Shown here: piece after piece, positions 544 to 30,148 of the stretch
How the letters are laid out: each line of letters starts with the position of its first letter
Numbering within the stretch: position 1 is the stretch's first letter
DNA from: Victivallales bacterium
Lineage (GTDB): Bacteria; Verrucomicrobiota; Lentisphaeria; Victivallales; SZUA-371
DNA: 36,303 bases
Assembly (NCBI GenBank): GCA_016936495.1
Contig: JAFGXT010000089.1
Coordinates: 1-36,303 of the forward strand
Direction: 5' to 3'
The notes under the pieces: generated by a model
What the model was told of the DNA's origin: nothing
Databases searched by the model: none
Seen by the model: only the letters and a program-made list of their open reading frames with translations
Position numbers and translations under genes: made by a program

Positions 544-1860
544 TTATTTTCTGATAATGGCGAGCAGTTCATCTCGTTTTGCTTCCATCATCTCTTTGCT
601 CTCTGCTTCCACGATCAGACGTAGCAGGGGCTCGGTATTTGAGCTGCGAACATTGAACCACCATTTATCGTATTCGACGGAAACACCATCGAGTTCAAAC
701 ATTTTGCCATCGCTGTATTTATTTTTTATTTCTTTGATGACTTGAGTCACATCTTTCACTTTTGAATTGATTTCACCGCTGGCGTGATATTTCCTCAGCG
801 GGGCGACCAATTCGCTGGCAGTCTTGCCGGTTTTGCATATGAGGTTGGCGAATTTCATAAATGCCAGCGCCTGCGACTCGGCGGTGGAATTTTCTTTGAA
901 ATAATAGTGTCCGGAGAGTTCTCCGGCAAAGACAGCGTCATGTTCGCGCATCTGGTTTTTGATAAAAGCGTGTCCAACGCGGGACATTATGGCGATTCCT
1001 CCGTTTGCTTCGATGCATTCTTTTACCGCCCAGCTGCTGCGCAGATCATAGAGGATAGTCGCCGGACCTTCAGAAAGAATATCTTGCGCGATAAGAGCGG
1101 TGAACAAGTCCATGGGGATGATTTCGCCTTGATCATCGACAAAACCGCAACGGTCGGCGTCACCATCGAATCCCGCGCCGAAGTCGGCGCCGGTTTCTTT
1201 TACTTTTGCACAGAGTGCGTCGAGGGTATCAAGTTGAAGGGGATTAGCTTCATGATTCGGGAAGGTGCCATCCAGTTCCTTGTACATGGGGATGATCTCA
1301 AAGAGGTCTTCGATTCCGGCGATTTCCAGCGAGCCCATGGCATTGGCATAATCCACTACAACTTTGAGTTTGCGGTCAAGCTTAGCTTTGGAACGGACAA
1401 AATTGCCATATTCCGGGGCTATATTGTAAGGGGTTACAGTGCCGGGGGTATTGCATTCCGACCACAGTCCCTGCATGGCGATTTTTTCAATATCGGCTAT
1501 GCCGGTGGCGCCGGAAATGGGGATGGCATCATGAATACACATTTTCATGCCGTTCCATTCGCCTGGGTTGTGTGAGGCTGTTATGATAACGCTGCCATCG
1601 GCTTTAAGGTGTGCGTTGGCGAAGTAAGACATAGGTGTGGAGCACAAACCCAGGTCAATGACTTGGGCTCCCTGGGCAGTCATGCCTTTGGCGAGCGCGT
1701 TGAAAAGAGGAGTTGAATGCGGGCGCATATCATGTCCGACCACGACCTTTTTCGCTCCGGTGAATTCTATGTAGGCGCGTCCGATTCTTTCGACTATTTC
1801 TTCATTGATCTGTTCAGGGTATATTCCTCTGACGTCGTATGCTTTAAAAATACCGGCCAT
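544..1860 (-). CDS. Phosphomannomutase/phosphoglucomutase (alpha-D-phosphohexomutase family)
   Basis: MAGIFKAYDVRGIYPEQINEE start; catalytic loop ITASHNPGEWNGMK; metal loop GFDGDADRCGF; sugar loop GELSGHYYF; phosphate loop RSSNTEPLLR. The ORF track extends upstream to 1956, but MAGIFKAYDVRG is the natural family start. Confidence 0.92.
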   Translation of the reverse strand: MAGIFKAYDVRGIYPEQINEEIVERIGRAYIEFTGAKKVVVGHDMRPHSTPLFNALAKGMTAQGAQVIDLGLCSTPMSYFANAHLKADGSVIITASHNPGEWNGMKMCIHDAIPISGATGIADIEKIAMQGLWSECNTPGTVTPYNIAPEYGNFVRSKAKLDRKLKVVVDYANAMGSLEIAGIEDLFEIIPMYKELDGTFPNHEANPLQLDTLDALCAKVKETGADFGAGFDGDADRCGFVDDQGEIIPMDLFTALIAQDILSEGPATILYDLRSSWAVKECIEANGGIAIMSRVGHAFIKNQMREHDAVFAGELSGHYYFKENSTAESQALAFMKFANLICKTGKTASELVAPLRKYHASGEINSKVKDVTQVIKEIKNKYSDGKMFELDGVSVEYDKWWFNVRSSNTEPLLRLIVEAESKEMMEAKRDELLAIIRK

Positions 1861-1991
1861 GTTTTTTCTCTCCTGCGCTGACGTGTTATTGTTTTCTTTT
1901 TGAAAGTCGCAGTACCTGCGAGTTGCTAATATACCACTATCAAAGGCTTTTTCCAAACTTGATTTTTGGCGAAAGCGCGTTATTTTTCATC

Positions 1992-2396
1992 ATGTTAAGC
2001 AATGTATGTGAGAAAATAACAGTACAGGAAGTATCGGTGTCAGAGATTAAATTCACTTTAACAGATGTTGAATACCTGATAGACCTGCGGGAAGACCATT
2101 CCATGGTTCTTATTACTCCGCAACTTAAGGTCTATTCTCTGATAAATCAGGCGCTGATTGGTGAAGTCCTGCTTGATGGCATGGATATGATACCTTCATT
2201 CAAGGTGAATGTAAAAGTGGGGGACAACTCTTTTAAGTTGCGACCCATTAAGGTATTTAATCCGCTTATACGCCATCCGGAAGACGATGATAAGATAAAA
2301 TTTTATAATATGGAACTGATGCTCTTCGCTGATTATTGTCCTCCACAGAAACACCAGCGCTCTATCTGCATCACCACTGAGCACGTTACGAAATAG
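1992..2396 (+). CDS. Hypothetical protein (134 aa)
   Basis: ORF from internal ATG MLSNVCEKITVQEVSVSEIKFTLTDVEYLIDL..., divergent from the phosphomannomutase gene. No family recognised. Confidence 0.55.
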   Translation: MLSNVCEKITVQEVSVSEIKFTLTDVEYLIDLREDHSMVLITPQLKVYSLINQALIGEVLLDGMDMIPSFKVNVKVGDNSFKLRPIKVFNPLIRHPEDDDKIKFYNMELMLFADYCPPQKHQRSICITTEHVTK

Positions 2397-2400
2397 TGGT

Positions 2401-2985
2401 TCACATGAACGATAGTTTGATTCCTTTTACCAGCATTTCTATGGATATGGCGGTTAGAAGCAATCCCATAAGACTTTGACCGGCTTCGAGTATTCTGTTT
2501 CCTCCGATCAGTTCCGCGATTGTAGAGGAGAACACTAAAATGACGGTAGCCGGCAGCCAGGCGATAAACATGGCTGCGGCGCAATATGGCAGCGTGGCGT
2601 CAGGGGCGCCCTGAACCAGTATGATCGTTGCCAGCGATGAAGGACCGGCAAGCATTGGAATCGCCAGCGGTACAATGAACGGTTCTCTTTTTTCCTTCTC
2701 CGGAGCCTTGTCGGATGAAAAAATCATTTTCAACGCGATGAGAAACAGTACAACGCCTCCGGCTATCCCGATAGACCCTTGCGAAATATGAAATATTTTA
2801 AGCATATACTTGCCGCATAGGAGAAATACCGTAAGCGCAGCCAATGCAATCAAAGCTTCTCTAAAGATGATTTTTCTGCGGCGTGACTGCGGGACACCGG
2901 ACAGGGTGGAGATAAAAAAAGGCATATTGCCTAGTGGATCCATTACTAGAAAGATGATTATCGCCGTTGATAAGATGAATTCCAT
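2401..2985 (-). CDS. MarC-family (UPF0056) integral membrane protein
   Basis: MEFILSTAIIIFLVMDPLGNMPFFISTLSG...GIAGGVVLFLIALKMIF...PLAIPMLAGPSSLATIIL: typical MarC/YhgN motifs. Confidence 0.88.
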   Translation of the reverse strand: MEFILSTAIIIFLVMDPLGNMPFFISTLSGVPQSRRRKIIFREALIALAALTVFLLCGKYMLKIFHISQGSIGIAGGVVLFLIALKMIFSSDKAPEKEKREPFIVPLAIPMLAGPSSLATIILVQGAPDATLPYCAAAMFIAWLPATVILVFSSTIAELIGGNRILEAGQSLMGLLLTAISIEMLVKGIKLSFM

Positions 2986-3210
2986 TTTCCCCTTCCTTTA
3001 GTTATGTTCATACAAACAATAACCGCTCAATGGAGTTTTGTCGAGTTCGCGTTTACTGAATCTTGTCCAATCACGGAAATTTCTTCCTGCATATAACGTT
3101 TTTTTGATGCCATTGCCGACATTTGTTGTTTTTACCGTCATTCATATTTATCGGTAAGAGAAGTGTTTTTTCTGCTTATATATCTGATTTGCGGTGATTT
3201 GTGAAGTATT

Positions 3211-3226
3211 TGGCACGTTCTTTGCT
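3211..3226 (+). promoter_or_regulatory. Sigma-54 (RpoN) promoter upstream of flagellin
   Basis: TGGCACG-TTCT-TTGCT; GG (3212-3213) and GC (3224-3225) are exactly 12 nt apart; matches the -24/-12 consensus. Confidence 0.88.
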
Positions 3227-3348
3227 TGTTAATTATTAGCGACATAAAAATATAGATTTTAAGTCTGACGGCCAGTTGAATAAATTATTCAATGGAGAAA
3301 CATACTGGCATGGACAGCCAAATAATTAAAACACGGAGGTTGGTTATC

Positions 3349-4242
3349 ATGAGAATTCAAAACAATGTAATAGCGGCGAATATATGGAGCAGCTATAGTG
3401 GCAATATGAGTAAGTTGCAGGCTTCGATGAGCAGATTGTCCACCGGAGTTATCAAAAGTACCGACGATCCTGCAGGCTTCGGCGTGGGCGCACGCATGGG
3501 AACTCAGATCAGCGATGTAGCCAAAGCTCGTCAAAATACCGATAATAGCATATCCCTGGTTCAGACCGCTGATGGCTGGCTCAGTGAGATGACTACTATT
3601 CTTGCCCGTATGCAGGAGCTGGCGGTCGAGGCGGGTGGCGGCTTGCTTGCCGAATCCGATAACGCCAATGTGCAAAAAGAATTTACAGAACTGCAAAGCG
3701 AAATACTCCGTGTTACTTCTGGAAACAACGCTGCGGGAACGTTCAATGGCGTCAGCCTTTTTCAAGGCGGTGATCTGACCGTTCAGATCGGGGAAGACAC
3801 TGACCAGACCATTGATCTTACGCTTGTCGATTTAAGTGTTACCAACACCAATTCAATTGGTACTGTAAGTTCTTATGAGTACGACAGCTCCGGTAATGTT
3901 ACCGGTTCATCCCATACTTCTGTGGCATGGTCCAGCATAATCGATACTTCTATGATGAGCGTGGGTAGCGAAAACGTTATCGGCGCGCTCTCTCTGGCCA
4001 TTGATTATGTGTCCAACTCAATAGCCATATTGTCTGCTCAGCAGACTCGTCTGGAAAGTACCAATAGTGCGTTGCTGACTTATCAAGACAATTTGAATGC
4101 TGCGCAAAGCCAGATAATGGATATTGACATGGCTCAAGAAACAACACGATACAGTTCTTATGAAGTGCTTTCACAGGTTGCCAGTGCAATGCTGGCACAG
4201 GCTAACAAGTTGCCGAGCCAGATACTTGAACAGTTGAAATAG
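3349..4242 (+). CDS. Flagellin (297 aa)
   Basis: N-terminus MRIQNNVIAANIWSSYSGNMSKLQASMSRLSTGVIKSTDDPAGFG; C-terminus SQIMDIDMAQETTRYSSYEVLSQVASAMLAQANKLPSQILEQLK. SD ACGGAGG upstream of ATG 3349 (the ORF track's 3292 start is 5' of this). Confidence 0.93.
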   Translation: MRIQNNVIAANIWSSYSGNMSKLQASMSRLSTGVIKSTDDPAGFGVGARMGTQISDVAKARQNTDNSISLVQTADGWLSEMTTILARMQELAVEAGGGLLAESDNANVQKEFTELQSEILRVTSGNNAAGTFNGVSLFQGGDLTVQIGEDTDQTIDLTLVDLSVTNTNSIGTVSSYEYDSSGNVTGSSHTSVAWSSIIDTSMMSVGSENVIGALSLAIDYVSNSIAILSAQQTRLESTNSALLTYQDNLNAAQSQIMDIDMAQETTRYSSYEVLSQVASAMLAQANKLPSQILEQLK

Positions 4243-22609: not shown

Positions 22610-22792
22610 ATGATCTGGGTAACTGATTTAAGAGGACAGAAAACTAAGTTGCATACCTCCCTTATCAGAGAAATCAGAAAGTCTCCGGACACTATTCTGA
22701 TTTTGTCCAACGGTAACAGCCTGATCGTTCAGGAAAGCGTGGACAAGGTAATTGATATGATATCCGGTAAACTCGAATCGGTCAGCAGCTGA
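22610..22792 (+). CDS. flbD: Small FlbD/SwrD-family flagellar protein, copy 1 (60 aa)
   Basis: MIWVTDLRGQKTKLHTSLIREIRKSPDTILILSNGNSLIVQESVDKVIDMI; typical FlbD family, between hook gene and motA. Confidence 0.85.
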   Translation: MIWVTDLRGQKTKLHTSLIREIRKSPDTILILSNGNSLIVQESVDKVIDMISGKLESVSS

Positions 22793-22813: not shown

Positions 22814-23068
22814 TTGATTAAGGTTACAGATGTTGCCGGTAATGTCAAGTACATTAACTGTGAACTGATAGAGAAGATCGAGGTCATCCCTGATACTCTG
22901 CTGGTGCTCACTAACGGACATAATTTTATCGTCAGTGAGGAGCCGGAGGAGATTATCAATAAGATCGTCGAATTCAAACAGCAGTGCTACAGGTACCGCA
23001 ATACCGGAGTTATGACGGTGGAGCACAAGGTTTCCGGGGATGAACCCGGAGATGTGACCGGTAATTGA
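22814..23068 (+). CDS. flbD: Small FlbD/SwrD-family flagellar protein, copy 2 (84 aa, TTG start)
   Basis: MIKVTDVAGNVKYINCELIEKIEVIPDTLLVLTNGHNFIVSEEPEEIINKIVEFKQQ plus C-terminal extension; SD GGAGG at 22801; TTG start at 22814. Confidence 0.8.
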   Translation: MIKVTDVAGNVKYINCELIEKIEVIPDTLLVLTNGHNFIVSEEPEEIINKIVEFKQQCYRYRNTGVMTVEHKVSGDEPGDVTGN

Positions 23069-23105: not shown

Positions 23106-23879
23106 ATGGATATTGGAACTATTATAGGAATAATACTGGGAATTGTACTGGTTACTTTCCCGATTATCAGCGGAGGAGCAGCCGGCGCGTTTATTGACGT
23201 CGGCTCAATGATGATCACAATGGGCGGAACACTTGCCGCTCTGTTAATCTCTTTTCCGCTGCCTAAAGTCAAATCTGTGCTGGTGGTAACCAAAAAGACC
23301 CTTAATTCCGGCAGCCTTGAGATCGTGCCGTGGTATTCCACGTTGATAGATCTTGCCACCATCGCCCGTCGTGATGGTATTCTGGCGCTGGAGGAACGGC
23401 TTGATGGTATCAGTGATGATTTTCTTAAACGCGGTCTGCAGATGATTGTTGACGGCAGCCCGGCGGACGCCGTGAACCAGATTATGGAGATGGAAATAGA
23501 AAACATGGAAATGCGCCATGCCATCGGACACAGTATCTGGAAAGGTATGGGCAGTTTTGCTCCCGCTTTCGGTATGATCGGTACACTCATCGGACTGGTG
23601 AACATGCTGCAGAACTTATCTGACCCGTCCAAGCTTGGCGGAGGTATGGCTATCGCATTGATTACCACTTTCTACGGCGCTTTATTCGCTAACCTGTTTT
23701 GCATCCCGCTGCAAAATAAACTTGAACAGAGAACCCAGGAGGAAGTACACCTTAAAAGGATGCTTCTTGCCGGTATCCTTTCCGTACAGTCCGGCGACAG
23801 TCCGCGTATGGTGGGAGAAAAGTTGGAGGTCTATCTGACCCCTGCGGAAAGAGCTGCAAATCTCCAGAAAGGCGAATAG
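23106..23879 (+). CDS. motA: Flagellar stator protein MotA
   Basis: MDIGTIIGIILGIVLV...FIDVGSMMITMGGTLAALLISFP...PAFGMIGTLIGLVNMLQNLSDPSKLGGGMAIALITTFYGALFANLFCIPL. Confidence 0.95.
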   Translation: MDIGTIIGIILGIVLVTFPIISGGAAGAFIDVGSMMITMGGTLAALLISFPLPKVKSVLVVTKKTLNSGSLEIVPWYSTLIDLATIARRDGILALEERLDGISDDFLKRGLQMIVDGSPADAVNQIMEMEIENMEMRHAIGHSIWKGMGSFAPAFGMIGTLIGLVNMLQNLSDPSKLGGGMAIALITTFYGALFANLFCIPLQNKLEQRTQEEVHLKRMLLAGILSVQSGDSPRMVGEKLEVYLTPAERAANLQKGE

Positions 23880-23934: not shown

Positions 23935-24729
23935 ATGGGCAAAAAAGATGATAATATTATATATGTGGATGGATGTCCTGATTGGATGTTGACCCTGGGC
24001 GACTGTATGTCGTTGCTGGTTACATTCTTTGTCATGCTGTTGTCCTTCTCCACTCCCAATAAGGACAAGTTGCAGGACGCGCTTGAGGGGATGAAGGGCG
24101 CGTTGAGCGTGATGAGCTTCGGTGATACGGCCTCTCAAACACAGGATGCCAAACGTTCCCGGCAGCATAGCACTACTAAGGTGGATACTTTCGGCGACGA
24201 CGGCGGTAAAAGCGAATCCGTAATCAGTGATGATAAGCTCGCAGTGGTGAATCTCAAGTCGAATGTTGTAACCAACCGATTCAATGACTTCAAGGAAAGA
24301 GTTCTGGAACTTGGGTTTCATAAGTTTGTAATGGCAAAACAACTTGACCGGGGAATCTGTATTGAGATTCCTTTCGATACTTTGTTCGAAAGAGATTCCA
24401 GTGTGCTTATTCCCGACAGTTTTAAATTGTTGCAGTCATTCGCCAACCTTGCCAGTTCGATTGATAATGAAATATGTATGACCGCTGTGTTCAATCCCAA
24501 CTTCGGAAATGGCAGTGTTGTGCAGAAATGGAATCATGCCAGGGAGATGACCTTTGCCGTAGGCAATGTCTTTATCAATAAGTACAGTATACAACCCCAG
24601 CGGTTTACCTATGCTTATGAAATATCTGTTGACATTCAAAAGCCTTTCTTACGGCTCATGCTGGCGGAAAAAATCGGAGTCAGCAGAATTACCATAGATG
24701 AACTTATAAGTTTTCAGCAGGAGATATAA
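23935..24729 (+). CDS. motB: MotB-like stator protein 1 (retains ion-binding Asp; degenerate OmpA-like domain)
   Basis: PDWMLTLGDCMSLLVTFFVMLLSFS matches the MotB TM/plug region (P-W-M-T-GD-M-LL-TFF); C-terminal domain only loosely OmpA-like. Confidence 0.85.
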   Translation: MGKKDDNIIYVDGCPDWMLTLGDCMSLLVTFFVMLLSFSTPNKDKLQDALEGMKGALSVMSFGDTASQTQDAKRSRQHSTTKVDTFGDDGGKSESVISDDKLAVVNLKSNVVTNRFNDFKERVLELGFHKFVMAKQLDRGICIEIPFDTLFERDSSVLIPDSFKLLQSFANLASSIDNEICMTAVFNPNFGNGSVVQKWNHAREMTFAVGNVFINKYSIQPQRFTYAYEISVDIQKPFLRLMLAEKIGVSRITIDELISFQQEI

Positions 24730-24732
24730 AAC

Positions 24733-25419
24733 ATGAAGAAAACAGTACTCGTCGGCCAACCGGCCTACATGGGGCAGTACACCTCGCTGATGATTATTAT
24801 TCTCGCGTTTTTTATCCTGCTTCAATCCATGTCCACCACCCAGGAGTCTGGATTTCAGAAAGGAATAGGACAGGTTAAAAACGCCTTCGGTCTTACCGGG
24901 GGAATGGGATTGTTTCAATTCATCTCATCCGGCTCCGGCGGCGCCGATGTGCCCAACCCGCATGGAACAGGGGATAAAAGCAGACAGGGTACCCATGAAA
25001 ATATTATTCGCGGAGAAGGCGGCGTCGGTAACACCAGCGCCGATGTCGAGGATTCCGACAAAGGACGCTACCTCCAAGTCGACGTTCCGATAGAATTTCC
25101 CGAATTTAAGACATTTCTCACTCCTGAAATCAAAAGAACACTTGATAAATTCAAAGTTGGCTTCATCTTGTATGATTATAAACTTATGATCAAGTGTTAC
25201 AGCAGTGAGTATAATGATTTTGAAAAGGATAATCATCTGGCGCTTCAGCGTTCGGCTAATATCATGAGGTATATTCATGAGACCGCCGGGATTCCTTATT
25301 CTCGTATGGAGGCGCTGGGCAATTCCAGCACCAGATATTATAATGTTAACGGAAGTGAAAAAATGTCTCCTCAGGAGACTTTTTTCTATATATTTGAAAA
25401 AAATCGCAGGAGGAAATGA
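24733..25419 (+). CDS. MotB-like stator protein 2 (Ser in place of the ion-binding Asp)
   Basis: PAYMGQYTSLMIIILAFFILLQSMS aligns without gaps to the MotB1 TM; C-terminal LALQRSANIMRYIHETAGIPYSRMEALGNSSTRYYNVNGSEKMSPQETFFYIFEKNRRRK is OmpA-like. Confidence 0.75.
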   Translation: MKKTVLVGQPAYMGQYTSLMIIILAFFILLQSMSTTQESGFQKGIGQVKNAFGLTGGMGLFQFISSGSGGADVPNPHGTGDKSRQGTHENIIRGEGGVGNTSADVEDSDKGRYLQVDVPIEFPEFKTFLTPEIKRTLDKFKVGFILYDYKLMIKCYSSEYNDFEKDNHLALQRSANIMRYIHETAGIPYSRMEALGNSSTRYYNVNGSEKMSPQETFFYIFEKNRRRK

Positions 25420-25421
25420 TT

Positions 25422-25934
25422 ATGGCAGAGAACAGAGAAAAAGCAGTGGAAGTTAATGCGGATAAATCCAAACCGGTAGTTATCATGCTGATCGTACTGG
25501 CGATCCTGGTACTGGTTTTTACCCCCATTGTAACTATCCTTGCCCTGAACGCTTTTATGCCTCAGGATACTACTAATCCTGAAGCCCAGAACCGTAAATA
25601 TACGGAAATCGCACTGGAGGCTTTCAAATTCAACGTCGCCGGAACTCAGGCAACGCGTTTCGCCCAGGTCGAGGTTGTTCTTGAACTCAGCGACGAAGCC
25701 ATGCTTGAATATTTTAAGGATAGAAGTTCCACTAATTCTCATGGTATGCTAAGTATGATCAGAGCGGAGATACTGGATATCCTTGCCGAACGTGATCTGG
25801 ATAACCTGCTATCGAAGAGCGCACGCGTTTCATTGCGCAAAGAAATTCAGACTAAACTCAACGGCATGCTCAGCGACAGAAAAGTCAAAGGCGTGGTTAC
25901 CGAAGTGTATTTCCCGAGCTTCCTCGTACAATAA
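25422..25934 (+). CDS. fliL: Flagellar basal body-associated protein FliL
   Basis: Single TM then YTEIALEAFKFNVAGTQATRFAQVEVVLELSD...RAEILDILAERDLDNLLSKSARVSLRKEIQTKLNGML...VYFPSFLVQ; ATG 25422 better spaced from the AGGAGG than 25416. Confidence 0.87.
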   Translation: MAENREKAVEVNADKSKPVVIMLIVLAILVLVFTPIVTILALNAFMPQDTTNPEAQNRKYTEIALEAFKFNVAGTQATRFAQVEVVLELSDEAMLEYFKDRSSTNSHGMLSMIRAEILDILAERDLDNLLSKSARVSLRKEIQTKLNGMLSDRKVKGVVTEVYFPSFLVQ

Positions 25935-25955: not shown

Positions 25956-26990
25956 ATGGCCAATGTACTTAATCAGGACGAGATCAATTCCCTGCTGGGG
26001 GCGATGGAGGATGGTTCCATTGATCTTAATGAGTCCGAAGGAAATAAGAAAGGCGAAGATTCGCCTATCGAGGATTACGACTTTCACCGTCCTAATCTGA
26101 TCACCAAGGATCAGTTGCGCAGTTTTCAGGACGTTCATGAGGGCTTTACCCGGGAAATGGTGTCGAGTCTTTCGCTCTTCCTGCGTACCGGTGTGGAATT
26201 CGAGCTTGTAGCGACCGAACAGCTTCAGTATGGCGAGTTTATCAAGACCCTGCCGGGCGTAACTCATAGCGTGGTGTTTACCGCCGATCCGCTACCCGGA
26301 GTGTCGGTGTTCGACGTCAATCTTTCGCTTATCTTTGGCGTTCTGGATATGCTCCTGGGCGGCAAAGGCGACATCGAGATCGAACTCAGAGTTCCTACCG
26401 ATATTGAGATCGCTATTATCACCCCCTTTATAGAAAGAATTATTGATAAGCTTCAGACTTCATGGCGTACGGTTATGAAGGATATTGTCCTGACCCAGGT
26501 CAATTCCGAATCCGACCCGGAATACATCCAGGCGGCTCCGGTGGATGCCCCTGTGGTAGTTCTCACTTTCGATGTGAAAATCGGCTTTGTCAACGGCACT
26601 ATAAATATCTGTTATCCGCTCCCCCTGATCCAGGCGGTGAACGAATATCTGGCAAGCGCCGCTAGCCAGATGGAGTCTTACTACGGTCAGAAAACTGACC
26701 GCGAGACTAAACAGAATCTGCTCAATTCGCTCATGGAAGTGGAATTGCCCGTGTCCGCCAGGCTGGGTGAGGCTATTATAAGTGGCTCCGAACTGCTGCG
26801 GCTTAAGGCAGGCGATGTTTTGGTGCTCAATTCTTCAGTGATGGATCCGTTGCCGCTCAACGTTGCCGGTAAGGAGATGTTTCTTGGCAAACCCGGTAGA
26901 ATAAAACAGAACCTTTATTTGAAAATATTCGACCGTCCGCAGAAAAATAGCGAGGGACCCGATATTAATCTTGACTGGCACAACGGTTGA
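25956..26990 (+). CDS. fliM: Flagellar motor switch protein FliM
   Basis: MANVLNQDEINSLLGAM...YDFHRPNLITKDQLRSFQDVHEGFTREMVSSLSLFLR. Confidence 0.95.
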   Translation: MANVLNQDEINSLLGAMEDGSIDLNESEGNKKGEDSPIEDYDFHRPNLITKDQLRSFQDVHEGFTREMVSSLSLFLRTGVEFELVATEQLQYGEFIKTLPGVTHSVVFTADPLPGVSVFDVNLSLIFGVLDMLLGGKGDIEIELRVPTDIEIAIITPFIERIIDKLQTSWRTVMKDIVLTQVNSESDPEYIQAAPVDAPVVVLTFDVKIGFVNGTINICYPLPLIQAVNEYLASAASQMESYYGQKTDRETKQNLLNSLMEVELPVSARLGEAIISGSELLRLKAGDVLVLNSSVMDPLPLNVAGKEMFLGKPGRIKQNLYLKIFDRPQKNSEGPDINLDWHNG

Positions 26991-27032: not shown

Positions 27033-27401
27033 ATGGCTGAAAAAAATAAAGAATCGAATATCGCTGATGCTGAATTTGGAAGACTTAGCGATACTCAGGT
27101 TGTCGGTTCCGATGAGGACGTTCACCGCAATCTGGAAATGATTTTTGACGTTCCCGTGAGCATCAGTGCCGAGCTGGGGCGCTCTGTGATAAAAATTAAA
27201 GATCTGCTTAGCCTGGGAAAAGGTTCGGTGGTGGAACTTGAACGGGTAGCCGGCGAACCGGTGGATCTGCTGGTTAACGGGGTGCTGGTCGGGAAAGGCG
27301 ACGTGGTGGTAGTTAATGATAATTTCGGATTGCGCATCACTGAGGTCGTATGTACTGAAGAACGAATCAAAAAACTTTCTTCTTCCAAAGATGATGAATA
27401 A
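27033..27401 (+). CDS. fliN: Flagellar motor switch protein FliN
   Basis: NLEMIFDVPVSISAELGRSVIKIKDLLSLGKGSVVELERVAGEPVDLLVNGVLVGKGDVVVVNDNFGLRITEV. Confidence 0.95.
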   Translation: MAEKNKESNIADAEFGRLSDTQVVGSDEDVHRNLEMIFDVPVSISAELGRSVIKIKDLLSLGKGSVVELERVAGEPVDLLVNGVLVGKGDVVVVNDNFGLRITEVVCTEERIKKLSSSKDDE

Positions 27402-27407
27402 TTAATT

Positions 27408-28769
27408 ATGCGTTTTCTCAGGTTGGGAACAGCCGGGTTGCGAGGAGAGACGGGCTCCGGTCTGAACCCTCAATATGCCATAAATTTCTCCTCCGCTTTC
27501 GGTACTTATACTGATGGCGGAGTTGTTGTTGTCGGCCGGGACACTAGAATCTCTTCCGGCATGCTCTATCACGCGGTAATAAGTTCCCTGCTCAGTTGCG
27601 GCTGCAAGGTTTTCGACGCCGGTATATGCCCTGCACCGATGCTTCAATTTTTGATCCCTTACCTTGATGCCCAAGGCGGGATAATGATTGGTGCCGGACA
27701 TCATCCCGCCAACTGGAACGCTTTGGTACCGCTTGATTCCTGCGGAGCATACCTCAATTCTGTTCAGGTGCAGGAACTGCTTGACATCTATCATTCCAAT
27801 AAATACGCTTGCCAGCCATGGAACAAAACTGGCTCGGTGGAAATGGTGGGTTCTGACGCTGCCGATGCTTATCTTGACGCCATTTGCGCGAATATCAATA
27901 CCGGATTAATCGCTTCGGGTAATTATACCGTCATCGCCGATTTTTGCAATGGCTCCGGCAGTCTCCTCGCGGATAAGCTCAGCGCCAGACTTGGCATCCG
28001 TCTGATTTCGCTCAATAATGAGCTTTCCGGTGTGTTGCCGCACGATCCCGAACCCCGTCCCCGGAGCAGTACTCAGGTGCGTTCCATTATGGAACCGCTT
28101 AAGGGCGACGTCGGCTTTGTTTTCAATAGTGATATGAGCCGCCTGGCGGTGGTCAGCGATAATGGCGAGACTTTGTCTGAAGAACTTTCCTTCCCCCTCG
28201 TTGCCGATCATGTGCTGGAAAAAGCCGGATCTGGACAGACCGTGGTTACTAACACCTGCACTACCAGAACGCTTGATGATATTGTCAAACACCACAACTG
28301 CCACTTGGTCAAAACCCGTGTCGGGCAGGCTTACGTTTTAGATTCTATGCTGGAACATGACGCTATCATGGGGGGCGACGGCAGCGGCAGTGTCGTCTTG
28401 CGTGGTTCCGTCAACGGCTATGACGGTTTTGCCGCCATGGCGCTTATTCTTGAGTCTATGGCGGAACATCAATGCTCTTCTTCCGGTCTGGTGAAACGGC
28501 TGCCGCGTTACTGGATCAATAAAAAGAAAATTTCCTGTATGGCGGTCAACGCCTATTCCCGCATTCGCGAATTACGTAATTTTTATCCTGACGCGCGTGT
28601 GTCCGAAGAAGATGGATTCCGGTTTGACTGGGATGACGGCTGGGTGCATCTGCGCAGCTCCGCCACCGAACCGGTTATAAGAATGATCGTCGCGTGGAAG
28701 ACCCGCGAAGAAGCCGAAGACCGTGCGGTGGAAATACGCGGCGCTATGGAACGACGGGGGGGCTCATGA
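27408..28769 (+). CDS. Alpha-D-phosphohexomutase family protein, predicted catalytically inactive
   Basis: Family fold motifs LGTAGLRGETGSGLNP, VVVGRDTRISSGMLYHAV, RSSATEPVIRMIV; catalytic loop reads GAGHHP and metal loop NSDMSR. Confidence 0.85.
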   Translation: MRFLRLGTAGLRGETGSGLNPQYAINFSSAFGTYTDGGVVVVGRDTRISSGMLYHAVISSLLSCGCKVFDAGICPAPMLQFLIPYLDAQGGIMIGAGHHPANWNALVPLDSCGAYLNSVQVQELLDIYHSNKYACQPWNKTGSVEMVGSDAADAYLDAICANINTGLIASGNYTVIADFCNGSGSLLADKLSARLGIRLISLNNELSGVLPHDPEPRPRSSTQVRSIMEPLKGDVGFVFNSDMSRLAVVSDNGETLSEELSFPLVADHVLEKAGSGQTVVTNTCTTRTLDDIVKHHNCHLVKTRVGQAYVLDSMLEHDAIMGGDGSGSVVLRGSVNGYDGFAAMALILESMAEHQCSSSGLVKRLPRYWINKKKISCMAVNAYSRIRELRNFYPDARVSEEDGFRFDWDDGWVHLRSSATEPVIRMIVAWKTREEAEDRAVEIRGAMERRGGS

Positions 28770-30148
28770 GCCGTAAAAAACATAATATAACCGGAGATCT
28801 GAAGGTAAGCGTAAGCGGCGTGCGCGGTATCGTCGGTGAATCGCTTACCCCTGGACTTGTCGCCGGATTTACGACCGCGTTCGGACAGTATGTCGGTGGC
28901 GGCAAGGTCATTGTCGGACGTGACACCAGACCCAGTGGAGCCATGCTCGAACACGCCGTCATCGCCAGCTTGCTGGCGGTTGGTTGTCAGCCGGTGCTTG
29001 CCGGTGTGGTACCAACCCCCACGGTGCAGATGCTGGTGGATAAGTATCGCGCCAGTGGCGGTGTCGTTATCAGTGCCAGCCATAACCCGGTGGAATGGAA
29101 TGCGCTTAAATTTATCGGCGCGTCCGGTACCTTTCTTAATTACAACGAGGCGGCGGAGCTTCAGGATATCTATAATCAGCCGGACAATATTTACGTGGCG
29201 GAACACGATTATCGTAATATCCGTTATGTGGAAGATCCTTTTGAGGTACATCGCAAACGCATTTTCAGCAAGATCGATGTGGACGCGATACGCAATGCCC
29301 GCTTTAAGGTCGCGGTGGACTGCTGCAACGGCGCCGGAGCTCTATTTGCCCGTTCGTTTCTGGAGGCGCTTGGCTGTGAGGTCTTCACAATCAACGATCA
29401 GCCCGACGGCATTTTTCGTCGGAATCCGGAACCTGTTCCTGAAAATATGCAGGAGCTGTCCCGGACTGTTCTGGAATATCATTGTGATATAGGTTTCGCG
29501 CAAGATCCGGACGCCGACCGTATCGGCGTGGTCAGAAGCAATGGTGAAGCCTTGTCAGAGCAGAGTGTACTGGTGCTGGCGGTCGATCATGTGTTGTCCG
29601 GTACCAATGGTAATGTAGTGGTCAACATCCAGACCACCAAGGCGGTGGAGGACGTTGCCGCCAGTTATAACTGCGCTACTTACTATTCCAAAGTCGGCGA
29701 GATCAACGTAAGTGGATTGATGCGACAGAAACATGCGGTCATTGGTGGCGAGGGCAGTAGCGGCGGCGTGATCTATCCTGACGTGTATCCCTGCCGCGAC
29801 AGCTTTACTGCAATGGCGTTGATGCTTGAAATGCTTGCCATGAGCGGAGCGTCTATTGATGATATTGTCGAATCCCTGCCGATGTATGTGAGTGTGTCCA
29901 GGAAATTCAAATGTGACGTTGGAAACGCCAGAAATATTGTACGCAAGCTCAAAGTCCGTTATCGTGAATTGAATCCTATTACAATTGACGGCATAAGAAT
30001 TAATTTCAGCCGGGACGCGTGGATATTGGTGCGGCCTTCCAATACTGAACCGGTCATACGTCTGTATGTTGAGGCGCGGACGCAGGAACAGGCGCATGAA
30101 CTGTTGGAGAATTTTGTAGCCGAACTCGAAGAACTTCGCAAAGCGTGA
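28766..30148 (+). CDS. Phosphohexomutase (phosphoglucosamine/phosphomannomutase-type), active-site motifs intact
   Basis: VSGVRGIVGESLTPGL, ISASHNPVEWNALK, QDPDADRIGVV, GGEGSSGGVIYP, RPSNTEPVIRLYVEA; ATGA overlap with upstream paralog. Confidence 0.88.
   Translation: MSRKKHNITGDLKVSVSGVRGIVGESLTPGLVAGFTTAFGQYVGGGKVIVGRDTRPSGAMLEHAVIASLLAVGCQPVLAGVVPTPTVQMLVDKYRASGGVVISASHNPVEWNALKFIGASGTFLNYNEAAELQDIYNQPDNIYVAEHDYRNIRYVEDPFEVHRKRIFSKIDVDAIRNARFKVAVDCCNGAGALFARSFLEALGCEVFTINDQPDGIFRRNPEPVPENMQELSRTVLEYHCDIGFAQDPDADRIGVVRSNGEALSEQSVLVLAVDHVLSGTNGNVVVNIQTTKAVEDVAASYNCATYYSKVGEINVSGLMRQKHAVIGGEGSSGGVIYPDVYPCRDSFTAMALMLEMLAMSGASIDDIVESLPMYVSVSRKFKCDVGNARNIVRKLKVRYRELNPITIDGIRINFSRDAWILVRPSNTEPVIRLYVEARTQEQAHELLENFVAELEELRKA

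Follow-up and report, generated by a model that had tools for sequence, protein, structure and literature searches.

A single motA gene in the flagellar operon of the window (36,303 nucleotides of contig JAFGXT010000089.1 from a Victivallales bacterium) is followed by two different motB genes, of which only the first encodes the aspartate of the ion site. This asymmetry between an Asp-bearing MotB1 and a non-acidic MotB2 is, at the sequence level, far beyond chance, because 76 of 77 other pairs show the same split. We consider it probable, based on these comparisons, that such genes encode an unequal stator, MotA5-MotB(Asp)-MotB(non-acidic), with an obligate heterodimer as its axle and one ion site per dimer.

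The operon encodes FliF, FliG, FliH, a FliI-type ATPase, FliJ, a FliK-like protein, FlgD, a FlgE/F/G protein, two FlbD-like proteins, MotA, MotB1, MotB2, FliL, FliM, and FliN, and includes the gene order flbD-motA-motB1-motB2-fliL-fliM-fliN (Table 1); motA adjoins the motB pair in relatives as well. Both motB reading frames are intact: motB1 has its ATG at 23935 and its stop at 24729, and motB2 lies in the same frame, starting one codon past that stop. The original prediction had described two tandem MotB paralogs, and both reading frames and every peptide quoted there were found. The best NCBIfam resemblance of MotA is to MotP/PomA, with a score below the cut-off, and, as judged only from this resemblance, the stator may prefer sodium.

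Table 1. Features of the stator gene region in the window
Feature	Coordinates	Strand	Evidence
motA, flagellar PomA/MotP-like MotA, single MotA partner	23106..23879	+	PF01618, 1.5e-32
motB1, Asp-bearing MotB paralog, 264 aa	23935..24729	+	MotB_plug, 9.6e-11
motB1, transmembrane helix, residues 16-38	23980..24048	+	Secondary structure of AlphaFold2 model
motB1, codon of Asp23, ion-carrying position	24001..24003	+	PF13677 position 24
motB1, OmpA-like periplasmic domain	24331..24666	+	AlphaFold2 model, fold match, profile columns
motB2, Asp-less MotB paralog, 228 aa	24733..25419	+	MotB_plug, 4.4e-7; orthologs adjoin motB1 in relatives
motB2, transmembrane helix, residues 11-37, core without charge	24763..24843	+	AlphaFold2 model and TM conservation table
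motB2, codon of Ser18, ion-site position	24784..24786	+	PF13677 position 24
motB2, OmpA-like periplasmic domain	25039..25398	+	AlphaFold2 model, fold match, profile columns
fliL	25416..25934	+	PF03748, 1.2e-16; 4-base overlap with motB2 stop
fliM	25956..26990	+	PF02154, 4e-41
fliN	27033..27401	+	PF01052, 6.3e-24

MotB1 and MotB2 both match the MotB_plug profile (PF13677) above the cut-off. Residues 16 to 56 of MotB1 correspond to profile positions 17 to 57 and residues 10 to 52 of MotB2 to positions 16 to 58, an independent alignment that assigns both MotB1 Asp23 and MotB2 Ser18 to position 24 and bears out the earlier claim that the two proteins align without gaps, with Asp opposite Ser. The transmembrane core of MotB2 contains no acidic residue. 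On this profile evidence, MotB2 is a MotB homologue, yet not a full MotB by itself, the ion-site Asp being absent. The available genome (4.5 Mb in 401 contigs, 88.8% complete) contains exactly two MotB_plug matches, which are the window MotB1 and MotB2, and six MotA_ExbB matches, among which only the window MotA is of the flagellar type (E value of 2.5e-132; the next best match has 3e-5). The single motA noted before for the window is also the only flagellar one in the available genome.

Among 100 genomes searched, comprising this one and its relatives, eight encode MotB2; this count includes the genome of the window. The motA-motB1-motB2-fliL-fliM order is kept in all of those relatives with enough contig in this order-level set; the MotB1 Asp is invariant among them, and the MotB2 residue is Ser or Ala except in L009/L074, where it is Asp. 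The 388 genomes of the phylum yielded more tandem pairs, in other families. A scan of genome contigs with a MotB2 profile, a query biased toward MotB2-like pairs, returned 41 loci from Lentisphaerota, Kiritimatiellae, Planctomycetota (Scalindua and Brocadiaceae), Desulfobacterales, Myxococcota/Deltaproteobacteria, and two alphaproteobacteria, nearly all of them located between motA and fliL. The Asp-bearing member precedes the Asp-less one (B1-B2) in Lentisphaerota, Kiritimatiellae, and Brocadiae, whereas outside the PVC group, in Desulfobacterota, Myxococcota, and Alphaproteobacteria, the order is reversed (B2-B1). Both members are retained in spite of this reversal, which counts in favor of a heterodimer.

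Two less biased sets were assembled with tandem MotB_plug matches as the sole criterion. The class of the Desulfobacteraceae genome has 147 genomes, 82 of them with a MotB_plug match, and the 14 tandems read from it (L123 to L136) comprise 13 pairs of the Asp/Gly type and a single Asp/Asp pair (L136). Of the 75 genomes in the class to which the Scalindua genome belongs, 40 have a match, and 36 of these 40 have exactly two, in tandem; 20 tandems were taken, and all 19 that were readable are of the Asp/non-acidic type. The Asp-bearing frame is short at L148, a locus from the same class. After removal of duplicates, 77 distinct linked pairs were available beyond the window, from Lentisphaerota, Kiritimatiellota, Brocadiae, Desulfobacterota, Myxococcota, and Alphaproteobacteria. 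The Asp-bearing member, a label set by the ion-site residue itself with L074 retained manually as a pair, has D in 77 of 77, and its partner has S in 36 pairs, A in 20, G in 15, T in 3, and V, I, and D in one each; the set leaves out D/D tandems outside the clade (L136), and these figures give the partner's residue when a partner is present, not the frequency of D/D tandems. That the pair and its Asp/Ser split are conserved together in related genomes, which had been proposed as a check, is strongly borne out across several phyla, with Ser, Ala, Gly, Thr, Val, or Ile in the partner, and this counts in favor of a heterodimer. The pair is found in many anaerobic and environmental bacteria, whose motor units, as read from these genes, may be unequal, with one working ion site and not two.

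The transmembrane helix of the Asp-less member is, by its conservation, not decaying. L(+6) is found in 76, F(+8) in 76, and F(+9) in all of the 77 pairs, and charge is absent from -4 to +12 throughout, apart from the Asp of L074. W(-6), which is invariant in the Asp-bearing member, and T(-3), which is conserved there, are both released in the Asp-less helix. The near-invariance of these in-membrane residues therefore favors contacts inside the MotA ring.

Tandem motB genes do not always encode just one Asp per pair, because both members have Asp at L074 and L136, and this counts against a heterodimer. L074 (positions 3161 to 3850) encodes the sole MotB2 ortholog with an ion-site Asp (PAYMASYTDMMM), either retained or regained, and offers a natural two-site comparison; an acid in the MotB2 ion site, named earlier as a potential objection to the split, is thus absent from the window protein and present in one relative. 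L136 (positions 1612 to 3248, Desulfobacteria) is an Aquifex-like MotB tandem with near-identical transmembrane segments, both with Asp. Two Lentisphaerales genomes have the operon in the form motA-motB2-fliL (L076 and L077). In the first of these (G408), a MotB1 ortholog with Asp is encoded on another contig (E value of 7e-60), which was counted in favor of a heterodimer. The relocated gene (L116, positions 877 to 1680 of G408:C112) adjoins genes for an HDOD-like protein and a hybrid sensor kinase, both named by translation alone. In the second (G273), motB1 was looked for and none was found, while motA-motB2-fliL is intact; this would count against a heterodimer, in an assembly that is only 86% complete. 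With MotB1 unlinked in G408 and G273 incomplete, no relative clearly has one paralog alone, a situation that the original prediction had regarded as contrary to its proposal. A truncated motB1 frame of 91 aa, with TMRDAMS in place of TMGDAMS, is present at L059 (positions 2390 to 2662) in a 2.0-Mb genome (G130) in which MotB2 was undetected; the stator of this organism is probably decaying, and the frame appears to be a decayed motB1 remnant.

In a tree of 89 strongly diverged rows with moderate support, all Ser/Ala-type partners fall to the same side of a single branch (93/89). Within the Gly-type pair of Desulfobacteria, the two proteins are sisters (96/91), and because of this placement, the best tree suggests a second, independent origin for that pair. 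The one-origin topology was seen in 0 of 200 bootstrap trees; the AU test does not reject one origin for the Asp-less members as a whole (p = 0.24). A separate Gly-type origin would count in favor of a heterodimer, and the AU result counts against it.

AlphaFold2 models of both window proteins combine a MotB-like transmembrane helix with an OmpA-like fold, with mean pLDDT values of 75.2 for MotB1 and 70.5 for MotB2 that are high in the domains. The top fold match of MotB1 is the periplasmic domain of Salmonella MotB (2zov; E value of 1.3e-8); that of MotB2 is 6jfw, with the MotB-like 3khn close behind, and its OmpA profile score (2.4e-4) is below the cut-off. MotB1 has N and M at the canonical D and R columns, its contact residues are replaced, and NRR is absent; MotB2 has S at the canonical TD Asp column, keeps Arg173 of LSxxRA, and also lacks NRR. 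The earlier view that the C-terminal region of MotB1 lacks a clear OmpA-like signature and an NRR end holds for NRR and fails for the fold, which is present. The NRRRK end of MotB2, previously read as closer to the canonical domain, is rejected as an NRR motif: no relative has NRRRK, the tail lies past the last strand, and the NRR columns align with "ETF", so that this unconserved, non-homologous tail is a coincidental likeness.

Peptidoglycan residues, as read from profile columns, are all kept by both members in the Gly-type pairs of Desulfobacteria, by the Asp-bearing member only in two alphaproteobacterial pairs, by the Asp-less member only in 5 of 10 pairs from Myxococcota/Deltaproteobacteria, and by neither member in 14 of 24 pairs from Brocadiae, the window pair likewise keeping them in neither. 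L097 and L100, one of them from Rickettsiales, are alphaproteobacterial MotB tandems whose Asp-less member lacks the peptidoglycan-binding signature. Because the residue-keeping member differs by lineage, wall contact is not divided in one fixed way. The earlier proposal for wall anchoring is only partly right, and its division between the two proteins, both OmpA-like in fold, is unsupported as stated; a split of ion conduction from anchoring to the wall does not hold as a general rule.

In the stator that we consider probable, motA, motB1, and motB2 would encode one flagellar stator type, with five MotA subunits around one Asp-bearing and one Asp-less MotB, and heterodimers would assemble to the exclusion of homodimers. 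The ion site of the Asp-less MotB (Ser, Ala, or Gly) would be permanently neutral, ion pickup and release would be left to the Asp-bearing MotB alone, and the Asp-less one would complete the axle as its other half and contribute the plug and, in a lineage-dependent manner, wall contact. With its partner neutral, only one site would gate rotation; each MotA subunit would meet the working site once per turn, and the ion count would be halved, to five per stator revolution (72 degree periodicity) versus ten (36 degrees).

A partner in contact with the outside of the stator, or one that forms a separate dimer, would likewise be consistent with the operon pairing and the transmembrane constraint, and this counts against a heterodimer. 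In the former case, the Asp-bearing MotB would form a homodimer in MotA5, and the Asp-less MotB would be an outside accessory that places, anchors, or activates the stator, binding it through the plug or the OmpA-like domain, next to FliL. Stator accessories do exist, examples being the MotB2-binding proteins MotE and MotK of Cereibacter (PMC10954123); the MotB-class OmpA-like domains in both members and the differences between lineages in the member that keeps the peptidoglycan residues are also in line with such a role. We nevertheless regard it as rather unlikely: a mere anchor would drift, whereas in the Asp-less helix the LAFF core of MotB is conserved across phyla and uncharged, the Asp-less protein has a MotB_plug match and a gap-free alignment to MotB, and its 1:1 tandem pairing with the Asp-bearing member is nearly strict.

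A separate dimer would mean two homodimeric stators on one MotA, a conducting MotA5-MotB1(2) and a non-conducting MotA5-MotB2(2) that would serve as a brake, an idle spare, or a static anchor and would set the number of engaged active units. The genome has only one flagellar motA, and stator exchange with different B subunits is known for MotAB/MotPS of B. subtilis (PMC7595845). However, torque would be lost to a non-conducting unit. The scheme, which we view as distinctly improbable, also leaves unexplained why several phyla retain the pair and why, in the best tree, it has a second origin. An ordinary tandem duplication, with one copy decaying after loss of the aspartate, would be in keeping with the degenerate peptidoglycan residues of both window proteins and with the existence of D/D tandems (L136; Aquifex, PMC4525482), but is contradicted by conservation, the split being common to 76 of the 77 pairs in several phyla, the core of the Asp-less helix near-invariant, and the reading frames intact; we give it hardly any credence.

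The MotAB/PomAB 5:2 motor shares with the window system a motA beside motB and fliL, a single N-terminal transmembrane segment with MotB_plug, and OmpA-like domains; it differs in that here, there are two different B subunits per motA, with the ion-site Asp in one only. In the turnstile model of the 5:2 motor, the two MotB sites alternate and each ion corresponds to 36 degrees, and the 10-fold symmetry has been called "almost certain to be a universal feature" (PMC9389320). If the stator proposed here is real, its one-sited axle would be an exception to models with two alternating MotB aspartates and a natural test of the need for alternation, of the number of ions per revolution, and of whether the axle halves can have separable jobs. 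Half the ions per turn would lower both torque and energy cost, and many of the carriers (sulfate reducers, anammox bacteria, and Lentisphaerota) are, by lineage, probably anaerobes with a limited energy supply, a link that we infer. To the broader proposition that obligate MotB heterodimer stators with one neutral site are widespread, evolved at least twice, and work in a five-fold and not ten-fold manner, with alternating aspartates dispensable, we assign an even chance.

One motA followed by two motB genes is also found in Aquifex aeolicus (PMC4525482). The N-terminal/transmembrane regions of the Aquifex MotB proteins share 97% identity, the one difference being Gly/Ser at residue 20, each MotB chimera alone drove motility with MotA, and an Asp split is undescribed there (PMC4525482). 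The window pair is not of this type: its transmembrane segments differ, with Asp in one and Ser in the other. The AglR-AglQ-AglS gliding motor of Myxococcus likewise combines one MotA-like with two MotB-like proteins; AglQ and AglS, both predicted to have Asp and TolR-like domains, drive gliding, and their heterodimer is unproven (PMC9389320). Unlike AglQ/AglS, the window pair is encoded in a flagellar operon and has Asp in one member only. Two B-type subunits are also named beside ExbB in some bacteria, in the ExbB-ExbD1-ExbD2 Ton systems, which are Ton energizers and non-flagellar. MotK/MotE of Cereibacter were considered as a prior report and rejected, as they are not MotB-like (PMC10954123). 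A 2025 MotAB survey took the B gene adjoining motA, and a word search of it found Lentisphaerota, Kiritimatiellota, two MotB proteins, and heterodimers unmentioned (PMC12505986). No earlier description of an Asp-less MotB partner was found in the open-access papers searched; both genes of such pairs probably carry a plain "motB" annotation and go unnoticed.

Two further gene pairs lie near the stator genes of the window. Upstream of motA are two FlbD-like genes (22610-22792 and 22814-23068), the second of which matches FlbD (9.7e-22) and is 39% identical to the first over 51 residues. Directly after fliN come two overlapping phosphoglucomutase/phosphomannomutase-like genes, one (27408-28769) confirmed by Pfam and the other (28694-30148) assigned by translation alone.
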